From Blattamonas nauphoetae (taxonomy: Eukaryota; Preaxostyla; Oxymonadida), in contig JARBJD010000229.1 in NCBI GenBank assembly GCA_033064195.1, forward strand, positions 1-64,000: DNA of 64,000 nt, read 5' to 3'. A program made the position numbers and the translations under genes. Numbering within the stretch: the stretch's first letter is position 1; each line of letters begins with the position of its first letter. This document shows positions 31,750-48,088 of the stretch, piece after piece. The notes beneath the pieces are model-generated. The model saw only the letters and a list, made by a program, of their open reading frames with translations, was not told the origin of the DNA and did not search any database.

Positions 31750-32027
31750 TCTGAGATGAGTGATTGATTGATTTGAGAGATCACACCCATTTTTTACAAT
31801 GTACAAACAAAAGTTTTTAATCAACTCATTCATTTTCGCGAAGGACAGACTAATTTTCTCTGACGCTGTGGATGAAATTTGAATAGACTTCTTTAAGTTC
31901 AATTCATTCCCAAACTCCGTCTCCTTATTGAACGGCGATCCGGAATTGGGTCTGATCAAAATATTGTTCCCCTCTCTCGAATCGTGAAATCAATTCCTCT
32001 TTCCTATTTTCAAATCAAAGCACGTTG

Positions 32028-33070
32028 ATGTCGAATGTGGTATTTCTGGCGTCGGATGCGTTTGGGAACTACGTTGTGCAGCGCATGTTGGACTGCGAGG
32101 AGCGAAGGATGGTGGACGCAGTGTGCACGCACCTGACCGGCCATCTGCACATTCTGAGCCGATCGAAGTTTGGGAGCAACGTGGCAGAGCGAGTGGTGGA
32201 GGTTGTGAGCAACGAGGGCTTCGTGTTTGTTGTGCTGGACATGTTTGGGCTGTTCGACGAGAGTTTGGGATTCCGCAGCTTCCGAATGAACATGTACGCC
32301 TCAACCACACCCTCCCCTCCACTCTCCCTCACCCAACCTCCTCTCCTTCCCTCCCACCAGACCCCACTCTCTCGCTTCGACTCAATGACAGTGACTCCAG
32401 CTGTGGCAGGACCGACATTCACATCTGGCCAAGCAGGATCCTTCACGCCTCTGTTCCACCCGCCGAGCCGCGCGTGGGACGGGCAGAAGCTGATGGAGAA
32501 GGACTCTCGCGAGCACTTGCTTGGGATGGTGAACAAGCCGCAGCTGGCAGGACTGATTTCAGACCGATTTGCGAATTACGTGTTCCAGCGAATGATTGAG
32601 CGAGCGGAAGGGAATGTGTTTGAGTTTGTGTTGGGAGGGATTGAGAAGGTGTGGAGCGAGTTGGAGTCGACGCTGCATGGACGACACGTGAAGACGACGA
32701 TTGAGAAGGTGCACAAAGACAAGACAGGGCGAGAGAGGAAGATGGAGAAGAGGAAGGGAGACGAGAAGGAGCGAGGGCGGAGGGAAGGAGGCCGAGCGGG
32801 AGGAGCGCCTCTTCTGTCACTCCCGTCGGAATCAGCACGCATCCCTCGGTCTCGCCGAAGACACGGCTGGGACGAATGGAAACCCGGAATGGATGCGACG
32901 AAGAACGAAGCGGACACAACAAAAGAGACGAAGGAATCGATCCTGCCCACAATTCAGTCATCGCAAGCTCCGACCCAGCCACCATCACATCGCGAAGTGC
33001 CGCTCTCCGTGCATCCCCAACCATGTCGCGACATTTCAATCAAAACACGAGCGCAGCTGAACACGAGTCC
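32028..33070 (+). pseudogene. Pumilio (PUF) repeat protein, 5'-truncated fragment
   Basis: PUF repeats are clear: LASDAFGNYVVQRML, LSRSKFGSNVAERVVEVV and, after a Pro/Ser/Thr-rich insert, LISDRFANYVFQRMIERAE with HGRHVKTTIEKV. The S/N-Y/FxxxxQ and SKFGSNVxERV helices read the RNA bases in this family, which normally has eight repeats; only about three to four remain. The frame begins abruptly 40-50 bp after the end of the duplicated region, with no upstream exon I can find. At its other end it runs into the DIRS-like element at 33071. The tail is Lys/Arg/Glu-rich (RKMEKRKGDEKERG). The fragment is more GC-rich than its neighbours. I read it as the 3' part of a gene cut on the left by the duplication and on the right by the element; a short functional gene is possible. 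Confidence 0.65.
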
Positions 33071-33129
33071 GGGCATCCTGTGGGAGTGCCCATAACCAAA
33101 CTAGGGCTCTCCCACTCCGTATGAGTGAT

Positions 33130-33519
33130 CAGTTGGTTTCGATGGGTCAGCAAATTAAAATGAACACGAAGAAAGGGGAGATCATCATTCCACCAAGTAT
33201 TTTATCCACAGTATGCTCTATTTCCTTCTCAGATTACTCATATTATCCCAACTTCATCAGAAAAGCATAGCAATTAGTGAAGTGACACTTTGGAGAAGAG
33301 AATTCTGATCCTCCAGTTTCTGTCTGTTTTCAGTTTCCGGGAAAGGTGAATCACTTCACTTGTTGCTATGCTTTTCTGATGAAGTTGGGATAATATGAGT
33401 AATCTGAGAAGGAAATAGAGCATACTGTGGATAAAATACTTGGTGGAATGATGATCTCCCCTTTCTTCGTGTTCATTTTAATTTGCCATTTTAATTTGCC
33501 GACCCATCGAAACCAACTG
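33130..33519. mobile_element. Foldback (MITE-like) element, 390 bp, nested in C1
   Basis: Two arms of roughly 150-160 bp are inverted copies (outer ends CAGTTGGTTTCGATGGGTC and its complement) around a loop of about 80 bp. The arms differ by a few bases and a 13-bp duplication of GCAAATTAAAATG in the right arm. It splits the left terminal repeat of C1 after GAGTGAT. The right terminal repeat of C1 keeps GAGTGATATGG uninterrupted (complement near 38245-38255), which is the empty site. The target duplication is AT, or TGAT if the outermost TG belongs to it. It has no coding capacity. Confidence 0.85.
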
Positions 33520-34000
33520 ATATGGTCTGTGAATATAATGTTGTGGGTTGGTCCCGCCAAATCTCACCAATGGACAATCTTATTGTGATTCCATTGACTT
33601 CTTACATCCATCTATGTACTAAGGAGGATGATACTAGGGAGAACTGGTTGTTTACTAGCCGAGAGATACTCCATTTCGAATCCACAAACTCAGCTGCTGG
33701 AATTCGTTCGGCTCCCACTCTTTCGCAATCAAAAGCATCTTGCTCCCTAAAACACCTCAATTTGTCCACCTCACCACTGGTTTGGAATGACAAGCGACAT
33801 TCCTCTGTAACTTACAGCCATCTATCAGGATCAACTTGCGACACTTCATTACTCCAGAATCTAGTTGAAAATCGTCAATGGAATCATTATTCTCAATCAA
33901 GATGCATAAACGAAGAATACCTTTCCACGCCTTGCGTTAACCGTCGTCATAGACGGACTTATCTGAGACAAAAGATGAAGGTGACGGAAACATTTGCAAA

Positions 34001-34135
34001 CCTCCCCGACCCTCGCGAGACAGGTCTGCCAGCCGATCCAGACATCGGCGGGGCGGAAGTGGCGAGGATCAGTCCCACGGAGGGGACACCTCAACCACTT
34101 CGCGCCCTTCAACTTGGCGACGTCGCTAGGGCGGA
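34001..34135 (-). repeat. ~135-bp dispersed repeat in C1, copy 1 (diverged)
   Basis: This is related to the pair at 36.6 and 37.0 kb. On the minus strand it reads DVAKLKGAKW...RHFRPADVWIGWQ, matching the peptide of the other copies at DxAxLKGxK and FxPADVxIGW. Confidence 0.6.
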
Positions 34136-36574
34136 AGTGAGAGGAAATTGCTCATAAATTACAGAAGAGAAGACTACGACGGACTCAATGAATCAGTCCA
34201 TTCACATTGTCACTTGAAATAGTTTTGATTTCACTCGGGCAAGATCTCTCCTCAAAACTCTGGCTGCCTCCCGGGCCAATTAACCCTTGACGTCCATCAT
34301 GACAATTATTTCCATGTAAATTACTGTTTAGTTCGCTTTCTCGTGAAGAAACAATCAATATCTCACGACGCGGGAAACTACCCGACCAACCGCAGAAATT
34401 CAGATTAACAACGCATATCTCGAGAAAGACAGTGAGAATGATCACACGAAAGACATTTCTCCATACAATCAGCAACCGAGACTGAAAGGCACATTGCAAT
34501 CACACCAGGCCGGAAATGTCGAAGAAACAGTTTATGAAGGGAATTGAAGGAGCCCGAGGACAAAAGGAGAGAAATATACAGCACTCTTCCGAATAAAAGA
34601 GGAAGGAAGGTGCCTTCAGAAGTTCAGGCTCCAGACCAGCGTCCATGATGGTCACTGAAACCCCCACTCGCACTTCGCCTCGGGGGTCAGCAGTATTGGA
34701 AATCATCTCCACTTTGAACTTTTCACACGAAGTGGAGGCTATTTAATCAACAAGAATCATGTCACGTCAAGTATACGAGAGAATCGACTCCAAACCGTGA
34801 CCGGCTCACATCACCCAAGCTTCCACGATGCTGGCATCAGTTCGTGTTGAATTACAGTGTTCCCCGTCACGGCAAGAGTGTGACATATCTTTTCTACTTG
34901 AGGCCCTGAGGGAAACATCGGTACGAGCCTCCGGCTCGGCTTCACCGTCAAATGTTGGAAAAAGATCATCCAGGGGAGGCGAGAAACTTGTTGGACTCGA
35001 TCATCAAGTTGCAAGGTACTCAGACAACCCTGATGGTCGAGTCTGCCGTCCTGGAGCCTACCTAAAAGACAACATGACGTTTGTCAACGGAACAATTCAT
35101 TTCGGGGCGGACTGTGAGTCAGCAAGGAACAGCGATCACCAGAACGATCTCTGTGTACAACACCTCATCAGTCCACGCGTCGAAGCTGACCTGATTCCCC
35201 AACTGCACTCGTCTCCGAGTTCCAACTGATCACTCAACCACAGCGACAGCATCTACCCGCCACCCGCGGCAGATTTATTGACATTTCGTCTTCACTATTA
35301 ACCGTTCGGACTGGCTTGCTTCGAATGAATCTTCGACAGATAGGATGGATGACACAGTTCGACTGCCTTCTCCGAAATTTGAAGACCCGCTTCTGATCGC
35401 GGCACATGTCTCGTCTGTGTCACCAGAAGGCTACCCTGGTACTCGCCGGTTTCCAAGAAGAGCCCCATTTCTTGCTCAGCTCCCACTCTTCATCCTCCAT
35501 CTGAGAGGGACGATAAGGAACGCACATGAAAGATACCCGACTGACCAAGCCTCGCTTTTTGATCCTGCCTTCGAAGCCGACTCTTCTCAGCAATCGCTCG
35601 ATCATCGTCAAATGTGGGCGAGCTGACCTGACACACCTTTTGAAACAGTCCTTCCAACACCACTCTCTGAGTCTCCTCCGCTCGCTCTTCAGCGACGATA
35701 ACCAATGTTTACGACACAGCGAACATGAATGAATTGGAATGCATCGTGTTAATGTTTCGGCTTGTGATGGCAGTAGGTGTTGATGCGACAATGACATTGT
35801 CTGGAATGTGTGCGTGAGTGGACGGCACTTATCATTCCCTCGTGTCAGAAGAAAGATTACCCTCGCTTCGATTGGTCACGGTGGGTCACAACTCCAGGTT
35901 CATTCGCGAGATCTGCGAATCGTCCATTCAAACACACTCCCCGTTGCTTTCCCTCAGTAATCAACGGTGCTGGTAGCAGTGTCTGTTTTCTCACTTCCAA
36001 ACGGGAATCATTCATGATTCAATTCTCTCACCTCATTGAGTAACGAACATGGTGGCTGCACCCATCCAAGAAGAGAAAACATCGAATCTCACCTGAACCA
36101 GACTAGCTGCCCGGATAGAATCATTCCAGGGAACCTGAACTCCATGTCTACTCCACGGAGCTGGGCAAGGAGGACGTGACATGAAACCGTGCGGTGCGAA
36201 TGTTTTCTCCTGAGAGTGGATACACTCCAATTCACACCGAAATGAACTCGCACCATCGGCCCACGACGAGGAGGTACCATAATCGACTCCTAGTCTAACT
36301 AAGGGACTTGATGTCTTTCAATTGCCATTCTGCTCTTTGTTTCGGTCGATCTCCGCCTCATCCTTCGTGTCAACTCGAAACAGAAGAAGCGATTGAGACA
36401 TATCCTCACAATGACACAGCATATTACGAAGGCCATTCAAGAACTATTGCCCAGCACTACCTTAAACAGAGTCTTATCAAAAAAGAAAGAAAGAAAGAAA
36501 CCCTTCAGGGAATCGGTTAAAGATCCACCAGACGCCAGGTTCTGAGGGTAGACGTCATTTTCGTTCCGGTTTCT

Positions 36575-37060
36575 CCTGACCCCCACGTGGTAATCCAGCC
36601 AGCCGATCAAGACATCGGCGGGACCGAAGTTACGGAGACCTGTCCGATGGAACGGATACTCCGTGGATTTCGGGTCCTTCAAATGAGCGGCATCGTCGAG
36701 GGCGGGATGCTTTGGAACCGAGACAAAACGAACCATTTAGCTTCAATCATTTGACCTGTTTTCAACTCTGTCGATGGGACACTCCATCCACCGACTCGCA
36801 ACGACGTCAAATTCACACAACATGTCGATCACCACGATTGTTGTTTATTTTATGTGTACCAGGGAATTGAATGGCAAGACATAATCATAGCAGCAAAACA
36901 AGGAACAGTTCAAGGCTCTCCTCGACCCTCACGTGGTAGTCCAGCCAGCCGATCAAGACATCGGCGGGGCCAAAGTTGCGAAGACCAGTCCGTTGGTTCG
37001 GACACTTCGCGTATTTTGGGCCTTTCAAATGAGCGGCATCGTCGAGGGCGGGAGTCAAGC
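36575..37060 (-). repeat. ~135-bp dispersed repeat in C1, copies 2 and 3
   Basis: Copies at 36575-36712 and 36925-37060 share GCCGATCAAGACATCGGCGG and AATGAGCGGCATCGTCGAGG. On the minus strand both read PALDDAAHLK and TGLRNFGPADVLIGWLDYHV. In the 20-residue block the DNA differences I can see fall at third positions and are silent, as for a constrained peptide. Both lie inside the DIRS-like fossil; I do not recognise the peptide. Confidence 0.65.
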
Positions 37061-37847
37061 CAGACAACAGAACAGATTGCAAAAATTGCAGCTCAGTTGG
37101 ACAAACCATACACAACCCTGCTCCAATCATCATCAAACAAAAAAAAAACGGACACGTGAACATCAAACAGACCCTCTGAGATTGGTATCCGGGGAGAGAG
37201 GTACTCCGACATTCTCTTCTTAGGAGGAAAGAGAAACAGGGTCATCACGGATTGGATTGTGTGACACTCTCGAATCGGAGAGTGAAGATTTAGCTGCTGA
37301 ACATGAAGGAAATCCAGGTGGTTCTCCAATCAGGAGACAACTTGGCAAGCACATGACGCCGGTAAAGTCAGCTGAACGGTTCGACTCGTCGACTATTCTC
37401 CATCGAGCTGGCGAAGATATGAAAGGGAGAGACGAGTCTGCTGAGGTTCATGTTGCAATAGAGACACCAAGTTCTCTTCCAAATCTGAAGGGGACGATGC
37501 AATGATGATGAGGAGGAACCACACACCCCTCGTTTGGAGCACAATCAAGTTGTTGAAGTCATTGCATCCCTCTTGACCTCCACCCACTCCAACAGCATGT
37601 AAAACCGGACGGATTTTTCCCGGTCTTCTGTCGGAGTGACTCACTCGGACCAGGTGAGTGCGTGGAGGAAGCCTCTCGCTCTGAAGGTCACAGCCAGTCG
37701 TGCAGAGACTCCACGACTGTGCGAGCGCCTTTTGTAAGCCTCAGAGAGGGCACGGTCCAGCAGAGCAAGCTCTGGAAGAATGAAAAGATATCTCTTCTTT
37801 TATTTGTTTATTCTTGGTTGCTCTGTATTCTAGGTTCCTTTCAACTC

Positions 37848-37929
37848 CTCATACGGAGTGGGAGAGCCCTAGTTTGGTTATGGGCACTCCCACAGGATGC
37901 CCTGTTTAAACAAACTAGTGCTCTCCCAC
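37848..37929. repeat. Internal complementary region of C1 (82 bp)
   Basis: The first 55 bp are the perfect complement of the element's left edge (33071-33125). The next 27 bp are the perfect complement of its right edge. Together they equal the complement of a circle junction of the two ends, the template feature that DIRS elements use to restore their termini. Confidence 0.8.
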
Positions 37930-38285
37930 GAGTAGCTCTTCTTAAAAAGGGCGCTCGTGGATTCTGATGGGAATCAGATCCAATGATGATCGTGCTCTGC
38001 GCTTTCGCAGGCACAAGCCAGTTTTTCTCCGCCCATCCGCGCTTTTCTGGTGCTTGGGGCTGATCCCCCCAAGAGTTATTTTTCTTTTTTTGCTCTCCTT
38101 TCTCCCGCCCTTTGGGCTGATTGTCTCATTATGATTTTATATCTAGTGAGAAATATAATTGATAATTTTATGATTTGGCGTTATATTGTCCATGGGTTCG
38201 GTTCATTAACGGGACCAACCCACAACATTATATTCACAGACCATATCACTCATACGGAGTGGGAGAGCACTAGTTTGTTTAAACA

Positions 38286-39018
38286 AAACTGGGAGACCTC
38301 GCTTCTGCAGCCGTCTGCACTGGTTGGTGTTGTGCGAGAGAGACCGAACGGGACAGGACACCCGTCGGCAGACACGCAGAACGAGAACATCGTGTCTCTT
38401 CCCAAACAACCCCGTTCGGAAGAGACGAGCAACACAGGAGCTGGTCTTCTCAAATCACCACAAACGAAGAACAGAACTCTATCGACCGACTCACCATTCG
38501 CTTTTACGCCTCTCCCAGCGATCTGCACTCCTCTTCTGTCACCGGCAGTGACAGCTGGGTCGCAGCTTACTGGGCCTTCGATGGCAGCTGCTTCGCACGT
38601 GGGACAGCGACGGAGCGGGCGAGGGCGAGGACGAGGAAGAGACAAGTGAACGACAGACGAGTTCTCGTGGAAGCCTCAGACAGACTGGACTGGTCATGGA
38701 GAGAAGAAGGAGGACAGACGAGCTCAATCACAACATCGACAAGAAGAAGCGACACCGACGACAGATGCACACCGCGCGGATGACGGAATGAAGTTGGCGA
38801 CTGGCGAGGTGTCGAATGCGGCACAGCTGTCGGTGACGTTGGAAACAGACTGGATGGGGGAAGAACCGACAGTAGCTGCACCGACACCAGCGAAGCCATC
38901 CGCACAGACACAGCCAGACGAGAGAGAGTGGACTCAGGTGTCGTCGTCGTTGTTTGGAGGAGAAGAGCTGACGCCGAACACGAAGACTCCAAGCGAGGGA
39001 GAGGTGGAGAGAGAATGA
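38286..39018 (+). other. Possible displaced 3' part of the Pumilio-like gene
   Basis: Directly after C1 the sequence returns to the GC-rich composition of 32.0-33.1 kb. Plus-strand frames (to 38649 and at 38788-39018) are Pro/Ser/Thr- and Arg/Gly-rich (for example RRSGRGRGRGRDK), like low-complexity tails of RNA-binding proteins. There is no PUF repeat here, so the link to the fragment before C1 rests on composition and position only. Confidence 0.25.
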
Positions 39019-39223
39019 GGGCGAGTCAGGAACAACGCTGTGAATCCTGTTCTTGGAGCTGATGACGAAGGTGTTTGGCTGTGTTTTGAAATTGATTTCA
39101 GGATTTCTGGGAATTGAGTCATCTTTCTATTTTCATCCTGTTCGTCTGTATCACACACTCTTCATTCACTTGTTTCCAAAACAACTTCAAAGCGAGAGGA
39201 GAAATGGGTGAGCAATGAAGGAA

Positions 39224-41663
39224 TTAGTCCCAGAACTCTGTGAGCTCCACATTTGCCCCATTCTTGTAAAGAATTTCAGCTGTCCACAGTTCGGGTGACA
39301 CCCAGCACCGAGTCCCGACAATGGGGAGTCTGGTCTCCAGAGCGTCTTTCCAACCATTTTGCGAAAGAAGCGTTCGTTTCCTCTTTACACTGTGGGGATA
39401 TTCGAGAACCTGGCTGCCAGTCCATTTTTGCATCACTCTGAGTCTGGGTATGAGAGCTTCCATGGATTCCAAGTTCACAATCCATTCCACTTCCCATTCT
39501 GCCATCCTCTCCTCGAACTCCGTGTCCAAGCCAACAGTAGTTGAGAGAAAACACAATCCATCGTAACAGAGACACAGATATGTCAACACATATTGCACAT
39601 CCGAGCTACTTTCCATTCTGACGAGTTTTTGTTCGTTTCGGAGAATGTCCAGAAGGAAGAGGCGGGCAGGAGTGAAAACTGCATCTTTCATCAATTGTGG
39701 GACATTCCGAGTGGATGTCGGAGATGAACGAAAAGATTTTCCAAACATCATTGAAAGAAGACGGAGAAAATAATTTTGACAGAACGGTGAAAGTTGAGAG
39801 AAGTCGGGTTGGCACAAAGCGAAGATCTGTTCGATCCAACGCTCTTCCATCATCATGTAATGTCTGTCGTGATTGAATTCGACAAATTCGGTGAGAAAAA
39901 AGAGAATCCTGTTCTTGAGAGACTGGTCAGGGTGAGAGAGGACGCGAAGACACGTTGGGAGGAGAGTGGCATAGTCGTCGAAACCAGCATCGACAAGGGG
40001 CGTCACGAGGGATGAACTGCACCCAACAAAACATTCTTCAAACGCCCACACAATTTGAATGAAATCATGAACTTCTTTTCGAAGTCTGGAGAGAGTTGTG
40101 TGAGGTTTTCTTGCTTGGAAGGCCACGTTCCCCCAAGTCACCGTCTCATCGTCTGGTCCTGCTGCGAGAGGCTCTTCTTCGAGGGCCTCAACCATTTCGA
40201 TACTCACATCTCGGAGATCCTTCATCAGAGAGTAGATCCCAGTTTGAGCGAGGAGCTGAGAATGAAGACAGTGAAACAACTGTCACTCCTGCTTCCGGTT
40301 CTTGGGTCTTGCCAAATTGATGTAAGGTTAGATCGTCGGTGTTTTGCGAATTGAAATTAATGTTGAAGGAAAACAAGTTACAAAAATGAGATAGGAGAAA
40401 CAAGGGACATTATTTGAAGTGAAAGCTGTTGTGAGGTCTGAATGTTGTGATGATCGGAGTGAATTATGGGTTCGCTAGGAGCTGTTCTCACCAACGATAG
40501 CTGAACAACGATCACCAAATCATTGATTCAACTAGAGAAGTTTAGAACTGCAGTTTTATTGAATAGTGAAAAACTGAAATGGAGTTGAATAAATGTGTTG
40601 TCTGATCGCACCCTTTATTCCTTGTTGCAAGACTTAAGAACCGGAAGTCGGAGTGACAGAAGTGAAAGTGTAAGAAATCACGAAAAGAACATAAAAAGAA
40701 CATAAAAAGAACATAAAAAGAACATAAACAGAACAGAGAAGGGAAAAAAGAGGATACATCAACCAGATTCCATGATTCTGGAGTATTATCTCGAAATGTC
40801 TGTAATTCGATGTGAAGGAAGGAGATCTGTGTGGTCAGTGAATCTATCATCTCCTCTGAATGTTCAGAAATATCTGTTTCTGTGCTTCTCAACAACACCC
40901 ACTTCTGTCGGATGTCATCAAAGTGATTTTTGATTCTTTTCGCCAGAATCACAAGAAACGGAGCAGAATTCGTGTCAGGTGTGTTGAAAGGTGATCGATC
41001 TGAGATTAGTTGGATTGGATGGTCAGTGGTGCCCCATCTCCGAACAAGCTCATCGTAGAGAGTCAGACTTTGAGCAGCCAATTGTGGGATGTCTGAAAGA
41101 GAAAGGGCAGCGAGCGTGGAGCGAATGCAGTTCGGAGGTTGTGTGTTGGAATAAACGGAAGCCACAGTTTGAAAGATGGGTTGGGTGAGAGTGAAGAAGC
41201 TCAACGAACTGATTCGGTCTCGAGCGATCGATGAGAGGCACAGACAGACCTGAGTGAAATCAGAAAGAGACTGTAAGAACAGTGATGAGCACACAGCCTC
41301 AATGTCTGGACAGTCTTTCCAGTACATCATCGACGAGAAGAGAAAGACAGAAAGAGGCGACGATGAGACTGAACGGCACAAGGAAAGAAAGAGGGACACT
41401 GCGAAAGGAACCACAGGATTGTGAAAGAGGGTTTACGAAAAAAGATAAGCATACTGTTGTTGGCTAATTCCCTCAGAAATCGAATCTGACAAGATGACGG
41501 AAGTGTGACGGCAAACCTGCTCTTCATTCGATGTATGTTCATCACACAGAGGAAGATAGTTCTGAAGAGTAATATTGCCTTGGTTGATGTCTGTCGAACA
41601 ATTTCCATCCAAGATTGTTTCACTGTTGTTTTCACGAGGTTCGAGTAGGTTTTTGAGATCCAT
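39224..41663 (-). CDS. HEAT/ARM-like helical protein, multi-exon
   Basis: Exon 1 (41663-41517, MDLKNLLEPRENNSETILDG, 49 codons, phase 0, donor GTTTGC). A middle exon runs from about 41276 or further upstream to about 40765 and includes SLSDFTQVCLCLSSIARDR, CIRSTLAALSLSDIPQLAAQ and ISEHSEEMIDSLTTQIS. The last exon (40255-39224) begins LLAQTGIYSLMKDLRDVSIE after CATTCTCAG. It holds helical repeats (LVDAGFDDYATLLPTCLRVL, NRILFFLTEFVEFNHD, FLRLLSMMFGKSF) and ends VELTEFWD. The layout suggests an ARM-like scaffold. The interval 40256-40764 is treated as an intron but is unusually long for this window and could hide another exon. The start of the middle exon has two possible acceptors. No named family was recognised. 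Confidence 0.6.
40684..40738. repeat. 12-bp tandem repeat in a putative intron
   Basis: About 4.5 copies of AAAAGAACATAA lie within the presumed intron of the HEAT-like gene. Confidence 0.85.
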
Positions 41664-42107
41664 CGAAGCTTCTCACGTGATACGGACCTCTGAAATGGAG
41701 GGATGTTTCTCAAGAATACTTGTTTTCACGAAAGGGAGGTAAGTGAGTCTGATCTGACCCTCAACGAGATCATGAGATTCGATCTTCTTTCTTGTGCCAC
41801 TTCACTTGTGTTGTACATTCACTTGGTCTCTTAAACTCGATCAATAGATGAAAATTCCTCTGGAAAGTCGATTGTGTCTTTTGAGACAGGAAAAGGAAGT
41901 CAGAATGAAGATTGAAGGGGAACAGGATATAAAACGTCAAATCTTCGTTGGCGAGAGGGAAGTGAGTGAAAATCAAGATAATGAACGTGTCGAACCACCT
42001 TAAGAACTTCGTAATCCAAATAGTGATGATCCAGAAGCGAGAAAAGAAGTAAGTAGTGAGAGTGAGCAAGATGAAATGAGAGTGAGGCTCTGAGGTTGTC
42101 TATTTTC
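41664..42107. other. Intergenic interval
   Basis: About 440 bp lie between the SPRY gene stop and the next minus-strand start. The frames are hydrophobic and AT-rich without motifs; nothing is called. Confidence 0.4.
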
Positions 42108-43121
42108 TCACCAAGCAACAGTTTTATCATCAGCACCTGTTTGAAATGACGTGCGTGCGAGTTGTTTGAACGTCACCAGTTCCATCGAGGCCTCATTCTT
42201 TTCATACAATGACACAGCTACCTGCACTTTGGGTGGAATCGCTGTGAAGATGGTTGGCTGTCGCTTTCCATTTTTGAAAAAGAGTGCTCGCCTCTGTTGC
42301 ATGTCCACTTCCACACCCACAACATCTCCCGCTGCCCATTCGTCTCCCTTTCCACATTTTTTTAATCCTAAAGCATGAAAGAATGATCCATCTTTGTTGT
42401 AGTCGACGCTGTTTGGATCATTCCCGAGACACTTCGACCAATCCTGATCCCACGGTGTCCGAAAGAAACCAAGTGCATATCCTATCACTGGACCAGCTTT
42501 CACTTCCACGAGCCAGACTCCCTCTGTCAGAACTGCAGCGAGAGGGATCGTGACCCATGATGTGGTTGTTGAGATGATTTTGGTTCCTTCGACACGACTG
42601 GTCAGCTTTGGCTCCCAGACAGCAGTTGGGATGATCGGTGCTTGTTCCATTGCTTTCCTTCGTTCCTCCTCCTCTCTCTCCTGTCTCCTCCCTTCAATCG
42701 CCCCCACTCGCTCTGCCCTGCCTCCTCCAACTGTCTCCGCAAAGAATTCAATCAGAACTCCCCCAACCATCTGGTTCAGCCTCGTTCGGCGTCGTCCCTC
42801 CTCTTCCTCCACATCGTCCTTGCCTGTTCGCATCCGAGACACAAGTTGCAGAAGTGTCTGTTTCGCCATTTCCAGTGCGTGGCCACTTCGCACAAAGATT
42901 GAAAAGCTGTCGTTGTCCTCGTTTGTGTGTTCAGCTTCGTCTTTTCCCTCTTTTGGTTGTTTGGCTTTCTTCTTCGCTTCTTCCGAACGACGGAAGCCAG
43001 CGATTCCTCTGCACACATTTCCCAGCACACCCACAAGTGAGGTCAGGGCAGCTGTGTCTGAACAGGACTCGATTTCGCGGCAGATGCGCTCCACAATCCC
43101 TCCACTCAGCACACTCTCCAT
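42108..43121 (-). CDS. SPRY-domain protein with helical N-terminus (337 aa, possibly the 3' part of a larger gene)
   Basis: The C-terminal ~170 residues match the SPRY/B30.2 pattern: GVWLVEVKAG, IGYALGFF, DGSFFHALGLKKCGKGDEW, AAGDVVGVEVDMQQRRALFF, KNGKRQP and VQVAVSLYEKNEASMELV. SPRY domains bind peptides or proteins. The N-terminal part is helical (IVERICREIESCSDTAALTS) with a Lys/Glu linker and may continue HEAT-like repeats. The ATG at 43121 is only 92 bp from the end of the DIRS-like fossil C2 at 43213. On the far side of C2, minus-strand exons at 48.1-48.7 kb carry similar helical repeats. I therefore suspect one HEAT-SPRY gene split by the insertion, but a start at 43121 is also possible. 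The protein ends ADDKTVAW. Confidence 0.7.
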   Translation of the reverse strand: MESVLSGGIVERICREIESCSDTAALTSLVGVLGNVCRGIAGFRRSEEAKKKAKQPKEGKDEAEHTNEDNDSFSIFVRSGHALEMAKQTLLQLVSRMRTGKDDVEEEEGRRRTRLNQMVGGVLIEFFAETVGGGRAERVGAIEGRRQEREEEERRKAMEQAPIIPTAVWEPKLTSRVEGTKIISTTTSWVTIPLAAVLTEGVWLVEVKAGPVIGYALGFFRTPWDQDWSKCLGNDPNSVDYNKDGSFFHALGLKKCGKGDEWAAGDVVGVEVDMQQRRALFFKNGKRQPTIFTAIPPKVQVAVSLYEKNEASMELVTFKQLARTSFQTGADDKTVAW

Positions 43122-43212
43122 TTCGGAGGGCGAGCGGACGGAGCAGCAGAGAAGACTGGGCGAGGGCGAAGGCGATGAAAGGAGAAGGATGGAGAAGAAG
43201 GAAGAGCAGACC

Positions 43213-46200
43213 CTTTACACAAACCAGTGCTCATCAACATGTTGAGTGAGTGAGACCCTGGGTCCATCAAAGACGGTCCATGGGTTGGCCGATCAACAAA
43301 TACAAATAAGAAGTTTTATCTGTTGAAAGTTAAAATCCCAACTCGAGAGGTTAATCATCGAGCCGGTTCTGCCCAAGTGGGGGCGGTTGATAAGCAAAAA
43401 GTGGGATCTAGCCCATAATTCCAGAAAAGCCCCAACGGGGATGAAAAACTGGAGAAACCGAAAAGTCAGAATGACTAATGAAATGAAAACCACCAAAAGG
43501 TTACAACTTAAAACGCCGCAGTGCTAAAGACATACCGATGTCCTCTTTCAACTGCTGTGTGTCAGAGAAAGAGGTTGATGAGCACTGGTTTGTGTAAAGG
43601 ATGTCGCAAGCTCCATCCGACACATAACCAGGGCTCATCAACATGTTGAGATTTGAAAAGGACTAAAATCAAGTGGAAAGTGAAAATGAGAATAAGAAAA
43701 GAAGAGATCCTGAATGACTCTACCCATTTGCTCACTTCCACCAAGACTACGGCCGTGCTTCCTCATAAGCTGGCACCAGCAGTTGGCGAGCGAGGAGTCT
43801 TATCGACCGATGACGATTGGAGCTGAGTAGTAGTCGTCAACAGGGGGCAGACTCGACTGACCAGTTGTAGTATCCTTTTCCACTCACTCCCCGAGGTTGA
43901 GGAGAACTCGACTCATAATTGTCGGACGAAGAGAACTCGACCCGCAGAAGAGATTCTCGAATGTAGGCTCGCGAGTCGTGGTCACGGGCGGGAGGGGAGA
44001 GTGGATTCATAGCCTGTTTCCGCTGATATGTAGCTCAGCTTTTCTTCTAAAACCATCTCTCTCTCCCCTCAAGTCACTCCTTCCATGTGAGTTTTGCCTC
44101 TTGTGTCTCTACCCGCTGACTCACATCGAGTGTTGTCTCCTCCATTTCTGTCTCTTCCGACCAGTCGCGTCTGCACTGTTGACATGTCCCTCTCTCCTCT
44201 CAATCAACACTCCCTCCGGACAACAAGATGACGATGTAAATCGTCTTTCATCGCTCATCGGCACTCCCTGCCTCTTTCACTCCCACTTCTTTCACCAATC
44301 TTTCCATTTGGAGATTTGTCTCGGTATTGACACTAATCGTCGATCAGCTCAAAGTAGCAGCTACTGATGTCGAGGTTACGTTGAAGCATCAGGACTCGAA
44401 AGGTTGTCAAAAAGTCATTTGAGGGAAGGTTAACTGCAGCTCTCTACTTCGACGAAGGCGGTGGTTGAGAGGAATATGCTGAGGAAAGTGCTATGCATGC
44501 CCGTATTTAAACAGTCCTCTTTCCCCAGAGATGTCCAAAAAACATCTCGCATTCCCTCCCAACTCCGCCGATCCCGTTTCCGTTCCGCTACCAATTGTGC
44601 TGGTGCTGTGGGAGATATCCATTCTGGAACCATATCCGATGATGTTGACTTCTGCCCGACCAGATTCTTCATTCCTTCCTTCGGGCCCCAAGTCCAACAT
44701 GTTTCTAATTTGACTGTACTCATCTCTGACAACACCTTCCGACCACGATGGAAATAATAGGTTGACGGTTCCGATGGTGAGTTCAGAACTGTTTCTCAGA
44801 AGTATTTCCTACAATGCGGGATGATCTGCGCTGTGACTGGTTCGCGATTGGCCGTCAAGTCCTTGTCAGCCAATCAGTAGAAAATGATTCACGTTCGCTT
44901 TGATTTGCATTGAGGACCGTCCCCTTGAAAGGCACTCTGATGTTGGTCAGAGTAGGTCATGCTGATGGTGTGAACTACCGACCAGCGAATATGCCAGTTA
45001 AGTTTTCTGGATTACTACACAATCACATCCAGTCTGACTCTTCCCCTTCTCCAAAGGTGACTTTGTGCTGGTCTGTTGAGATGCCGCACTCTTCACATCA
45101 ACGTGTATGGTTGAACTGTATGGCGAGAGACCAGTAGAGCTTGGATCTCCAACCCAATCTGTCTTTTCCTGTGCGATGACATGCCTTTCATGCGTGTGAG
45201 ACAGAGAATGTTTAGCCCATTCAGGGTGAGGGGTTCAGAATGAGAAACGTGTTTCTCTGATTCTCGATGATTCTGTTGAATGAGTGGGGTTCGACGATGC
45301 CTGGTGCGAGCAACCTGTCTCTCGGCTTTAGCCTGTCTTGTTCTTGAGATGTCGTTGAAGAGAGTTTAATTTGATTCGTCGTCGACTTGTGACCAGGGAA
45401 ACACATTGCTCTTGTTGGAGAGACTGGTCGCGTCCTCTTATTGGCGGCAATCAGAACGGATAGTGCGAGAAAGCTGGACTTGGACGTTCTCCGGACTGTC
45501 CTTCTTCTTCAATTTTGCCTTTCGCTGTCAACTCTCTCCTGGGCATCATGACAGTTTACAGTCCCACAATTTCGTTGCTCTGGACGATTGAAGAGTCGTG
45601 GACAATGCGGAGGAGATTTCTCTCACTCTCCTTCTTCTCCGCGCCTGGTACGTTCAGTAGTGTCCGTTTCGAGAATCCTACCATCGTTTCACTTCAAACT
45701 CCGGATAATTTTGAGTCATGGTCTTGTAATTTATTCCATTCTTTTCAGCGAGTGTTTCAACAAAGAGATTCTTCACGCCGATTATCATGCTGAGTTCATG
45801 ATCTTCATTGGCTTATTGGACGAGTTCAAATGTCCTCGGATTTGTACGTGGTTCTTCAAAGTGATCAAAAACAGTCGTGAAGATTTCGAGATCATCTGTA
45901 ATGTGATATAATCCTTTTGGAGGACCTGAGCGTGAACTAGAATCAGTTCAAGTGTCGACGTCGTCGAGTTCAGCCTGTCCCACTGGTGGGACAGAAGGTG
46001 CTTGTTCGAGGATGGGGCTGGAGGCTGATACAATCCTGAAAGGTGACGACGGAATTGGGAACTGACGATTGTCGTCGAAATGTGCACATTTTGTGATTTT
46101 CTGAGATTGGTCATTCCTATCCTTGTTTACAATCTCAACTTCGTTGTCGTTCCCAAAAGAGGTTGTTTGCATGTCAGCACTAAATAATTTCACTTGTAAT

Positions 46201-48088
46201 CGATCATATTTCAGTCCTTTGGTCGTTTTGAGGTAAGTTCATCTGCCGTGAAACTTTGAGTCTGCCGGGGGGATCAGTTGTCCAATTGAGCTTGAGACGG
46301 TATTGATATCGAATCAATGAGAGATGTGCGGAGATGAAATGATCTGTTGAATCACGATTGTTTGTCAATTGAGGTGATCGAGGCGTTGATACGTTGATTA
46401 CCGACCAAGTCATGGTGGAACTCCGTTGTTCTTTTGGCTCCCTTCGCAGGATGCTCTTGTGTTTCGTTGCTGATGCAGACAGGCGTGATGTTGGCGATAC
46501 TCGAGTCCAGAGAATGTCCATCAACAGTGTATCCCAAAAGGAAGACCATTTCTTCCTTGCAAGGGGATCAAGGGTTCAGGTCTGACATGTTTGGCTCCGA
46601 GCCAAGATGCGCAAGATCGCCGTGATACTGTCGTCGGAGACGTGATCAAATTGATGTAAATGGTGAGTTATACGAAATGGTGACAGATTTTGAGATGATA
46701 GTGACGAGTGTTGATTCGCTTTATGTCCGGTATTGGATGGTGCGTGGTTTCATTTTACCCCGCTGCTGGACGGGATGAAATCACGCAACCAAGGTCACTA
46801 ATTGCTGATTCTAGCAATTCAGAGGTGCCTTTATCTTTCATTGGCTTCGTAGGTAGAGTTTGATCCTTCTACATGGCAGAGTCCATCTAACGAGATTATC
46901 TTGTAATCATCTGTCACGTTTCACCCTGTTGGATATCAGAATACTATTGAGTTGAGTCGTAATGCTTTTCTTGCAGTTTACAGCCAATTTTAGTCCGAGC
47001 AGAGCAGGCGGAGTGATGCTTCTCAAATCTGGTAGAAAAGCCTCCGCATGATATTGAAATGCTGTGGATAAACTGTTTGACCTTCTTTTTATTGTCCAAG
47101 TCTCCTCCTCGCTCGCAAGTCCAAGTTCCTTGAGTGCAACGGTTGGCACGAAAAAGTGGTCGCTTGATTGGACGAATTTCATGATGAATCCTGTCACTTC
47201 TGGATCTGTTGTTCACTTCGCATGCTAATCATGATACTTCTGAATCTGGTGATCGTTCGGATGTAATACCGAGATACTTTTCCTTCGCCCTCCTTTCTAT
47301 GATCCGTGGAGAGTCTTGTTGTTATTATGAATGATATCGGCAGTCAATACTCCAACGTTTGCACTGTCTTGAGTGCTGAGGAACGTTATTACTGCACAAT
47401 TATCCATTCGTGGTTGTACTGAGACGCAAGTATGATTGGTGTGTAATGCAAAGGTATTGTCTGGTTCAGATTCCAAGCTTGTAAAACAGACGGATTATCT
47501 CATCCTCGGTATGAACTTTCAACCTTGTCACGATCCTTCGCTTGAGAGAGGATAAAACTGAACAACTTGAAATTGATGTCGTGAGGCATCGTGTGAATTA
47601 CTTTGCTGATTTCAGGGCTCACAAGATCGGAGAGATTGTCGATGCCTGTATCCTCCTCGTCGTCCAACTTTCGAATCGGGTCATGGATCTTTAAGAGTGA
47701 TCGATCCTCTTCAAGTTCCCGGTCTTGCTTGTCGACTTGTAAAACATTCATATTGAGAGATCTCAATTGAATCCACTTGTTACCCCTGTCTTGAGTGGGT
47801 AGTTGAAAGAAGTGAGGTGATGCTGCCATCGGGAGATACTTGTGCGAGCCTTTTATGGCGAGATTGAAGAGAACGACTGAGTGAAGAAATTGTATTTCTG
47901 TTTGATCAGTATGAATTAAGTGATGATCAAAGAATGATAGTTCGTTAAAAATAGACGAGGAGGTCAATTTGTTTCGATTGGTATTTTAGATCGGCCAACC
48001 CATGGACCGTCTTTGATGGACCCAGGGTCTCACTCACTCAACATGTTGATGAGCCCTGGTTATGTGTCGGATGGAGCTTGCGACATCC
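43213..48088 (-). mobile_element. DIRS-like tyrosine-recombinase retroelement fossil (C2), ~4.9 kb
   Basis: The architecture is the mirror image of C1. A 66-bp inverted terminal repeat core is identical at 43229-43294 and 47989-48054 (includes CTCATCAACATGTTGAG). Outer edges differ: CTTTACACAAACCAGT on one side, GGATGTCGCAAGCTCC on the other, both read inwards. The internal complementary region is at 43574-43650, about 350 bp inside the short-edge end as in C1. Length without nested inserts (4.88 kb) is close to C1. The repeat sequences of C1 and C2 are different apart from a shared ATAACCA...GGGCTC and CAAAC(T/C)AGTGCTC theme, so these are two families with one design. No intact polymerase or recombinase frame was recognised; the longest minus-strand frame (47500-47967) is of unknown type. 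Exact edge copies suggest a young insertion. Confidence 0.6.
43574..43650. repeat. Internal complementary region of C2 (77 bp)
   Basis: The first 26 bp complement the element's left edge exactly; positions 43599-43650 complement its right edge (48037-48088) over 52 of 52 bases. The two blocks meet with a one-base overlap, as expected of a complement to a circle junction. It contains the 14-bp palindrome CTCAACATGTTGAG at one end. Confidence 0.8.

Follow-up and report, generated by a model that had tools for sequence, protein, structure and literature searches.

How can elements that encode neither a polymerase nor a complete recombinase carry the terminal design of a retroelement and recur at unrelated sites of a genome? 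The question is raised by two elements, C1 and C2, that lie in opposite orientation in a contig of the oxymonad Blattamonas nauphoetae, a flagellate of the gut (JARBJD010000229.1, assembly GCA_033064195.1). The window, i.e., the whole stretch of DNA analysed, covers positions 1 to 64,000 of this contig (64,000 nucleotides). A sequence-only reading of the window had likened both elements to DIRS-type retroelements and proposed that they might be non-autonomous passengers of a relative elsewhere in the genome. The follow-up reported here indicates that C1 and C2 are, in all likelihood, non-autonomous DIRS-like retroelements of different families, probably mobilised by the enzymes of intact relatives.

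Architecture of C1 and C2

Both elements are bounded by inverted terminal repeats (ITRs) with unlike outer edges, and each contains an internal complementary region (ICR) that is the exact complement of its two outer edges joined together. Their parts are as follows.

33071..38285, plus strand: C1, hollow DIRS-like element of about 4.82 kb net, delimited by its ITRs, its internal block and matching ends in the copy L070 elsewhere
33071..33091, plus strand: left extension (lE) of C1, with a 5-bp stem GGGCA/TGCCC and 11 nt between
33130..33519, no strand assigned: palindromic insert of about 390 bp, resembling a miniature inverted-repeat transposable element, nested in the left ITR of C1, with AT on both sides
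37721..37844, plus strand: putative relic of a recombinase 3′ end in C1, with weak similarity to the recombinase gene end of the coding relative L019 (69% over 129 bp)
37848..37929, plus strand: ICR of C1, with 37848–37902 matching the 5′ end and 37903–37929 the 3′ end
38210..38285, plus strand: right ITR of C1
43214..48088, minus strand: C2, hollow DIRS-like element of 4875 bp
48069..48088, minus strand: lE of C2, with a 5-bp stem GGATG/CATCC and 10 nt between
47986..48088, minus strand: 5′ block of C2, common to subfamilies with unrelated interiors
43844..47985, minus strand: interior of C2, with no coding function seen, varying between subfamilies
43752..43841, minus strand: recombinase stub of C2, 30 codons around a DYYSAP motif, with one in-frame stop
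43574..43650, minus strand: ICR of C2
43214..43843, minus strand: 3′ module of C2 (stub, untranslated region, ICR and right ITR), 85% identical to the coding element at C4

In C1, 33071–33125 is the exact complement of 37848–37902 (55 nt) and 38259–38285 that of 37903–37929 (27 nt), giving a block of 82 bp; in C2, 48037–48088 pairs with 43599–43650 (52 nt) and 43214–43238 with 43574–43598 (25 nt), giving 77 bp. The longest exact inverted repeats measure 55 nt in C1 and 66 nt in C2, against maxima of 13 and 14, respectively, in 40 dinucleotide shuffles of each element. The DIRS-like design described by the sequence-only reading, with its exact blocks and unlike edges, is thereby confirmed. The limits it gave for C1 also stand, while the 3′ terminal base of C2 is moved from 43213 to 43214, since the listed copies have any base at the former position. 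C1 spans 5215 bp because of the palindromic insert in its left ITR; the net lengths of both elements agree with the earlier values.

The interiors lack the enzymes expected of a full DIRS member. None of the ten open reading frames (ORFs) of C1 and C2 tested against Pfam exceeds the cut-off, with one sub-threshold match to PhoD_N (E 0.096), and tblastn detected no reverse transcriptase (RT) homology in either element. The earlier statement that neither a polymerase nor a recombinase is recognisable thus holds for the polymerase and has to be amended for the tyrosine recombinase: no complete gene is present, but C2 retains the stub and C1 the weak relic. Lacking RT/RNase H, both elements are therefore regarded as non-autonomous derivatives. 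A coding function of the C2-group interiors was considered and rejected, since the patches that subfamilies share resemble one another on either strand and in several of the frames, and sequence sampled at mid-element contains frameshifts and stops. No solved structure matching the recombinase frame was found.

Coding relatives in the same genome

The genome searched comprises 88.31 Mb in 837 contigs; the accessible part of the published description gives 88.54 Mb in 879 contigs (PMC10703272). Phage integrase family matches number 50 in this genome, 40 of which are flagged as exceeding the cut-off; RT candidates of every kind number 392, and the best 150 of these were scored. Among the matches listed, an RT repeatedly lies about 2.1 kb from a recombinase. 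At L069, a gag-like ORF without a Pfam hit is followed by RT/RNase H and a recombinase in an overlapping frame; beyond these lie an internal block and a 3′ end that resemble those of C1 and C2. Its RT is over the Pfam cut-off, RNase H and recombinase are below theirs, and its 5′ end was not found. No match to a methyltransferase domain was obtained after RNase H in L069; PF05869, which we take to be a Dam methylase family, is carried by some homologues of the coding relatives. A tRNA gene suspected by eye beside L069 was dismissed, as ARAGORN reported none. The 3′ design of L069 is shared by all ten recombinase loci fetched (L049–L058, near-identical members of one family). Coding relatives thus encode RT/RNase H and a tyrosine recombinase and not a DDE enzyme, a point on which the sequence-only reading had made its DIRS assignment depend.

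Support for the passenger proposal is good in the case of C2 and weaker in that of C1. A search with the 3′ module of C2 gave 206 genome candidates (the best 40 of 206 were scored), and its 3′ arm pattern gave 52 matches per strand, compared with none for the reversed control. Among the matches listed, those at C4, C49 and C189 are C2-type ends that, judged by position, directly follow frames for a recombinase and an RT in the same orientation, and the recombinase piece at C4 is over the Pfam cut-off. These coding elements measure 4790, 4787 and 4795 bp, respectively (each one more if the last A is counted). They have the 20-nt lE of C2 exactly and a 3′ arm one base longer than that of C2, and they match exactly a 38-nt 5′ tip pattern taken from the internal block of C4, in which C2 has one mismatch. 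C4 and C2 are 85% identical over 655 bp at the 3′ end, starting within the recombinase at the tyrosine motif (1251 bases of C4 were read). The stub of C2 reads DDYYSAPIVIGR, a stop and DSSLANCW, compared with DDYYSAPVLIGRSDSSLANCW in C4, i.e., nearly the same peptide plus a stop. A recombinase profile finds the stub in all six C2-group loci tested.

For C1, the closest coding relative seen is L019 (at C282), which is 76% identical over the last 303 bp, in addition to the similarity at the recombinase gene end listed above. L019 is decayed and retains 88 amino acids of the recombinase, 52% identical to the L049 family. Among 13 C1-group loci, the recombinase profile gave a confident match in L019 only, and none of the C1-type 3′ ends listed lies directly past an RT–recombinase pair among the RT and recombinase matches listed.

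Copies, interiors and ends of the hollow elements

In-place decay of the genes of ordinary DIRS elements, following their insertion, might account for C1 and C2, given the recombinase stub with a stop in C2 and the ten ORFs without a Pfam hit over the cut-off. For C2, however, this is refuted by its copies: L071 and L072 match it at 99.7 and 99.6% over 4.88 kb and have unrelated flanks, and therefore the hollow form itself moved and multiplied after gene loss. Moreover, above a single sharp boundary the interior varies from one subfamily to another. For C1, the counter-evidence comprises one close copy, L070, in which C1-type ends occur at a different genomic site and interior blocks are 91–93% identical. 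Decay in place is thus considered very improbable. Even less credence is given to C1 and C2 being DNA transposons with inverted repeats, of the DDE or Crypton type, that resemble DIRS elements by chance. Inverted termini and the lack of a recognisable polymerase would suit such transposons, but the exact circle-junction block and the 3′ module held in common with an RT/recombinase element would not. Target duplication, too, is absent in C1 and C2 themselves and in seven of the eight elements with both flanks read (six of the C2 group and two of the C1 group, by eye). Two DDE ORFs were seen; that of the C2 copy L073 lies within a nested insertion, and the other is in L076, where the limits of the insert are unmapped.

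The interiors of the C2 group were compared. L074 and L077 are 99.6% identical over 4.75 kb, but their similarity to C2 is limited to the ends and a patch of 71 bp, and L083 and L084, sampled mid-element, are of the L074 type, with no convincing RT homology (best E 0.024). About 1.4 kb of the 5′ half of L075 is common with C2, and L076 has diverged patches in common with L074. These comparisons suggest perhaps four interior lineages and not dozens. Pairwise identity was calculated in 60-column bins for nine sequences (seven C2-group loci, L079 and L069). Between subfamilies, the C2-group module is mostly 75–100% identical per bin (one bin, 65%) and identity falls to background just upstream of the stub; in the subfamilies read, the interiors change at one common boundary. 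L069 is only about 32–70% alike to the C2 group over the module region.

It is quite possible, though on balance not expected, that the identity of the 3′ module is due not to selection but to elements having recombined, or switched templates, with one another repeatedly. In favour of such exchange, the similar stretch includes the stub and adjoins upstream sequence that cannot be aligned, and stops are present in the stubs of C2, L044 and L048. Yet, the shared boundary also fits one ancestor followed by rapid interior replacement. Furthermore, exchange of modules addresses the origin of the hollow forms and not their identity, and it is compatible with their being non-autonomous DIRS-like retroelements.

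Among the C2-group copies listed, 39 have both ends paired (38 plus C778 at 5177 bp), copies without either end having been left out. Of these, 34 measure 4.70–5.01 kb and none is shorter; the five longer ones measure 5.18, 5.30, 6.15, 6.55 and 7.00 kb, the 7.00-kb copy containing a nested DDE element and the 6.55-kb copy a DDE ORF. A constraint that keeps hollow C2-group elements at the length of the coding ones (34 of 39 at 4.7–5.0 kb, compared with about 4.79 kb), despite their unrelated interiors, is conceivable but rather improbable, and the agreement may partly reflect common descent, because the interior lineages are few. A strict size rule fails in the C1 group, where shorter copies of about 3.43, 3.47 and 4.12 kb occur at C133, C170 and C309. 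If true for the C2 group, the length constraint would point to a step of the DIRS cycle at which size is measured, such as particle packaging or the closing of a circle of fixed size. The interior would then be exchangeable filler, flanked by a 5′ end with a hairpin tip and an invariant 3′ module.

The sequence-only reading had named in advance two grounds for doubting itself, namely copies that end elsewhere and an internal block missing from most copies. All 20 C2-group loci fetched have one 3′ end (19 TGTAAA and one TGTGAA) with different flanks, and all 20 contain the block. The base after this end is G in 10, A in 5, C in 4 and T in 1 of them, with GG in 6; rough binomial values are 0.011 for G and 0.0009 for GG, from a test chosen after seeing the data. 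These counts hint at a preference of insertion for the letters with which the lE begins. The 5′ end is GGATG in the six C2-group elements with 5′ ends read.

In the five families read (C1, C2/C4, L049, L069 and L034, the last found by scanning fetched loci for hairpin tips), the 5′ tip can fold into a stem of 5–6 bp around 10–12 nt. This rule holds in five of five families, the element end being set by hand with a tolerance of 2 nt, whereas shuffled tips comply in 2–3% of cases each (product about 1e-8). The hairpin scan covered 14 distinct junction strings. Three of them (the main C2 one, L017 and L018) yielded no stem, as their arms had been set too short, and for L079 an arm set too long produced another stem; the L019 junction, of which only 36 nt were taken, also gave no stem. 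With stem letters that differ among the five families, the hairpin tip is a concrete candidate for the recombinase site.

The internal block and the ends agree in most elements. The 5′ tip and the block correspond in 37 of the 40 elements with both listed, mostly through identical common letters; the informative cases are the coding elements C4, C49, C189 and C767, in which one base departs from that of most hollow elements, in tip and block alike. Similarly, block and 3′ end vary together in the C2 group (TGTAAA, TGTCAA, TGTCAAA and TGTGAAA) and in the C1 group (TTTAAACA, TTGTACA and TATACA). This correspondence, seen in different lineages, is evidence from nature for a role of the block in templating the ends.

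By analogy with DIRS-1, C1 and C2 have probably been propagated with enzymes supplied by intact relatives within this genome. The element RNA would be copied by the RT of an intact relative, and the two unlike ends would be restored and joined on the internal block, acting as a template or splint, in line with the model of ICR-restored ends in the accessible DIRS-1 literature (PMC5633606). The tyrosine recombinase of the relative would then insert the circle without target duplication. In cis, a 5′ ITR with a hairpin tip and the 3′ module may suffice, the interior being replaceable. End rebuilding and insertion of DIRS elements are largely a model; the hollow elements show what is enough in cis, a 5′ block of about 100 bp plus a 3′ module of about 630 bp.

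The RNA intermediate, the circle and the supply of enzymes in trans are taken from the DIRS-1 model, whereas the anatomy, the coding relatives, the common 3′ module, the spread of the hollow form and the match of block and ends in most copies are seen in the genome itself. Several observations weigh against the explanation as a whole. The only coding relative seen for C1 is decayed, so that a living helper for C1 is hypothetical. A 3-bp circular junction overlap common to both ends, usual but not universal in DIRS1-like elements, is absent in the five families read. L075, the eighth of the elements with both flanks read, has GATCTGC beside both ends, in a flank where GATCTG recurs. In addition, 5′ tip and block mismatch in C257 (269053–275198), C279 and C617, block and 5′ end differ by a 1-nt deletion in L032, and block and 3′ end disagree in L033, L045, C110, C155 and C277.

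Further features were noted within and beside the elements. The palindromic insert in C1 has arms of 136 nt that are 99% complementary, and it is frequent genome-wide, with 84 match rows, among which many places are counted on both strands. C1 contains three occurrences of a 130-bp unit (34008–34137, 36578–36707 and 36924–37053; 65–100% identity), which is partly visible in L070 too. The C1 interior at 35415–35830 is about 78–80% similar to a dispersed, apparently non-coding repeat at C834, C390, C350, C440 and other places. Its capture from a spliced host mRNA, suggested by intron-like gaps in several of the genomic matches, was rejected: the gaps are of unequal length (212 and 130 nt) and without splice borders that match, and similarity is much the same in every reading frame. 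It is taken as a non-coding dispersed repeat. In C2, 45452–45695 is 72% similar to a stretch at ten other places with equal scores (of these, L082 was read), and a patch of about 75 bp (46716–46796), 75–79% conserved between otherwise unrelated C2-group interiors, is a possible cis element. The 5′ end of C1 sits at the end of a PUF-repeat ORF (31956–33095), and C2 lies directly upstream of a SPRY-domain gene (42108–43214), for which all four relatives with a name are proteins of B. nauphoetae. Elsewhere, the 3′ end and internal block of the fifth DIRS-like family adjoin a C2 copy (L034:3039–3358), and an ORF with a Peptidase_S74 (endosialidase chaperone) domain lies near a C2-group copy (L078:1636–2547).

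Comparison with known systems

In the accessible part of a survey of 28 annotated DIRS1-like elements, 23 begin and end with NTT and a 3-bp circular junction is common to nearly all; a left extension without a right one is confined to AcasDIRS1 and AmDIRS1 (PMC3266345). The families described here are of this rarer lE-only kind, without a constant overlap. As in AmDIRS1 of Allomyces and AcasDIRS1 of Acanthamoeba, the ITRs have unlike edges, the ICR is near the 3′ end and there is a left but no right extension; the length of AmDIRS1, 4801 bp, is also similar to those of C1 and C2 (PMC3266345, same part). Unlike these elements, C1 and C2 have neither a constant terminal trinucleotide nor a 3-bp junction overlap, are gene-free and have an lE capable of forming a hairpin, a feature that the accessible text of the survey does not mention. 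Their host is a metamonad, whereas the lE is reported in that text only from fungi and amoebozoa (PMC3266345).

DIRS-1 of Dictyostelium, in the accessible part of its description, resembles C1 and C2 in its ICR and inverted repeats, with proposed ICR-templated end repair, a circle and integration by tyrosine recombinase (PMC5633606). However, it encodes its own enzymes and has a right, not a left, extension (PMC5633606; for the extension, PMC3266345). SIRE, the truncated partner of VIPER in Trypanosoma cruzi, is likewise a non-autonomous tyrosine recombinase retroelement with the ends of its coding relative, but it measures about 0.43 kb (185 + 30 + 220 bp) and has split direct repeats according to the accessible part of the source, whereas C1 and C2 measure about 4.8 kb and have a replaced interior, ITRs and an ICR (PMC6681497). 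Split direct repeats of the SIRE/VIPER type (A1...B1 A2 B2) do not occur in C1 and C2, whose repeats are inverted and accompanied by an ICR. A parallel in organisation is Dasheng with RIRE2, where large non-autonomous long terminal repeat (LTR) elements combine a long non-coding interior with functional ends and a helper in trans, as in C1 and C2, but through LTR and integrase chemistry instead of an ICR and a recombinase.

A literature search, in which subscription journals are poorly covered and only a minority of the papers listed was opened, found no non-autonomous partner of an ICR-bearing DIRS-like element. TOC1 of Chlamydomonas is a possible earlier case. The main text of the Blattamonas nauphoetae genome paper contains no word starting with "transpos" or "dirs" (PMC10703272), and the Monocercomonoides exilis genome paper none starting with "dirs" or "retrotranspos" (PMC8767320). 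Within a known kind of element, C1 and C2 are unusual: they are large, gene-free and recently multiplied, and they combine a swappable interior with a fixed 3′ module and a hairpin tip.

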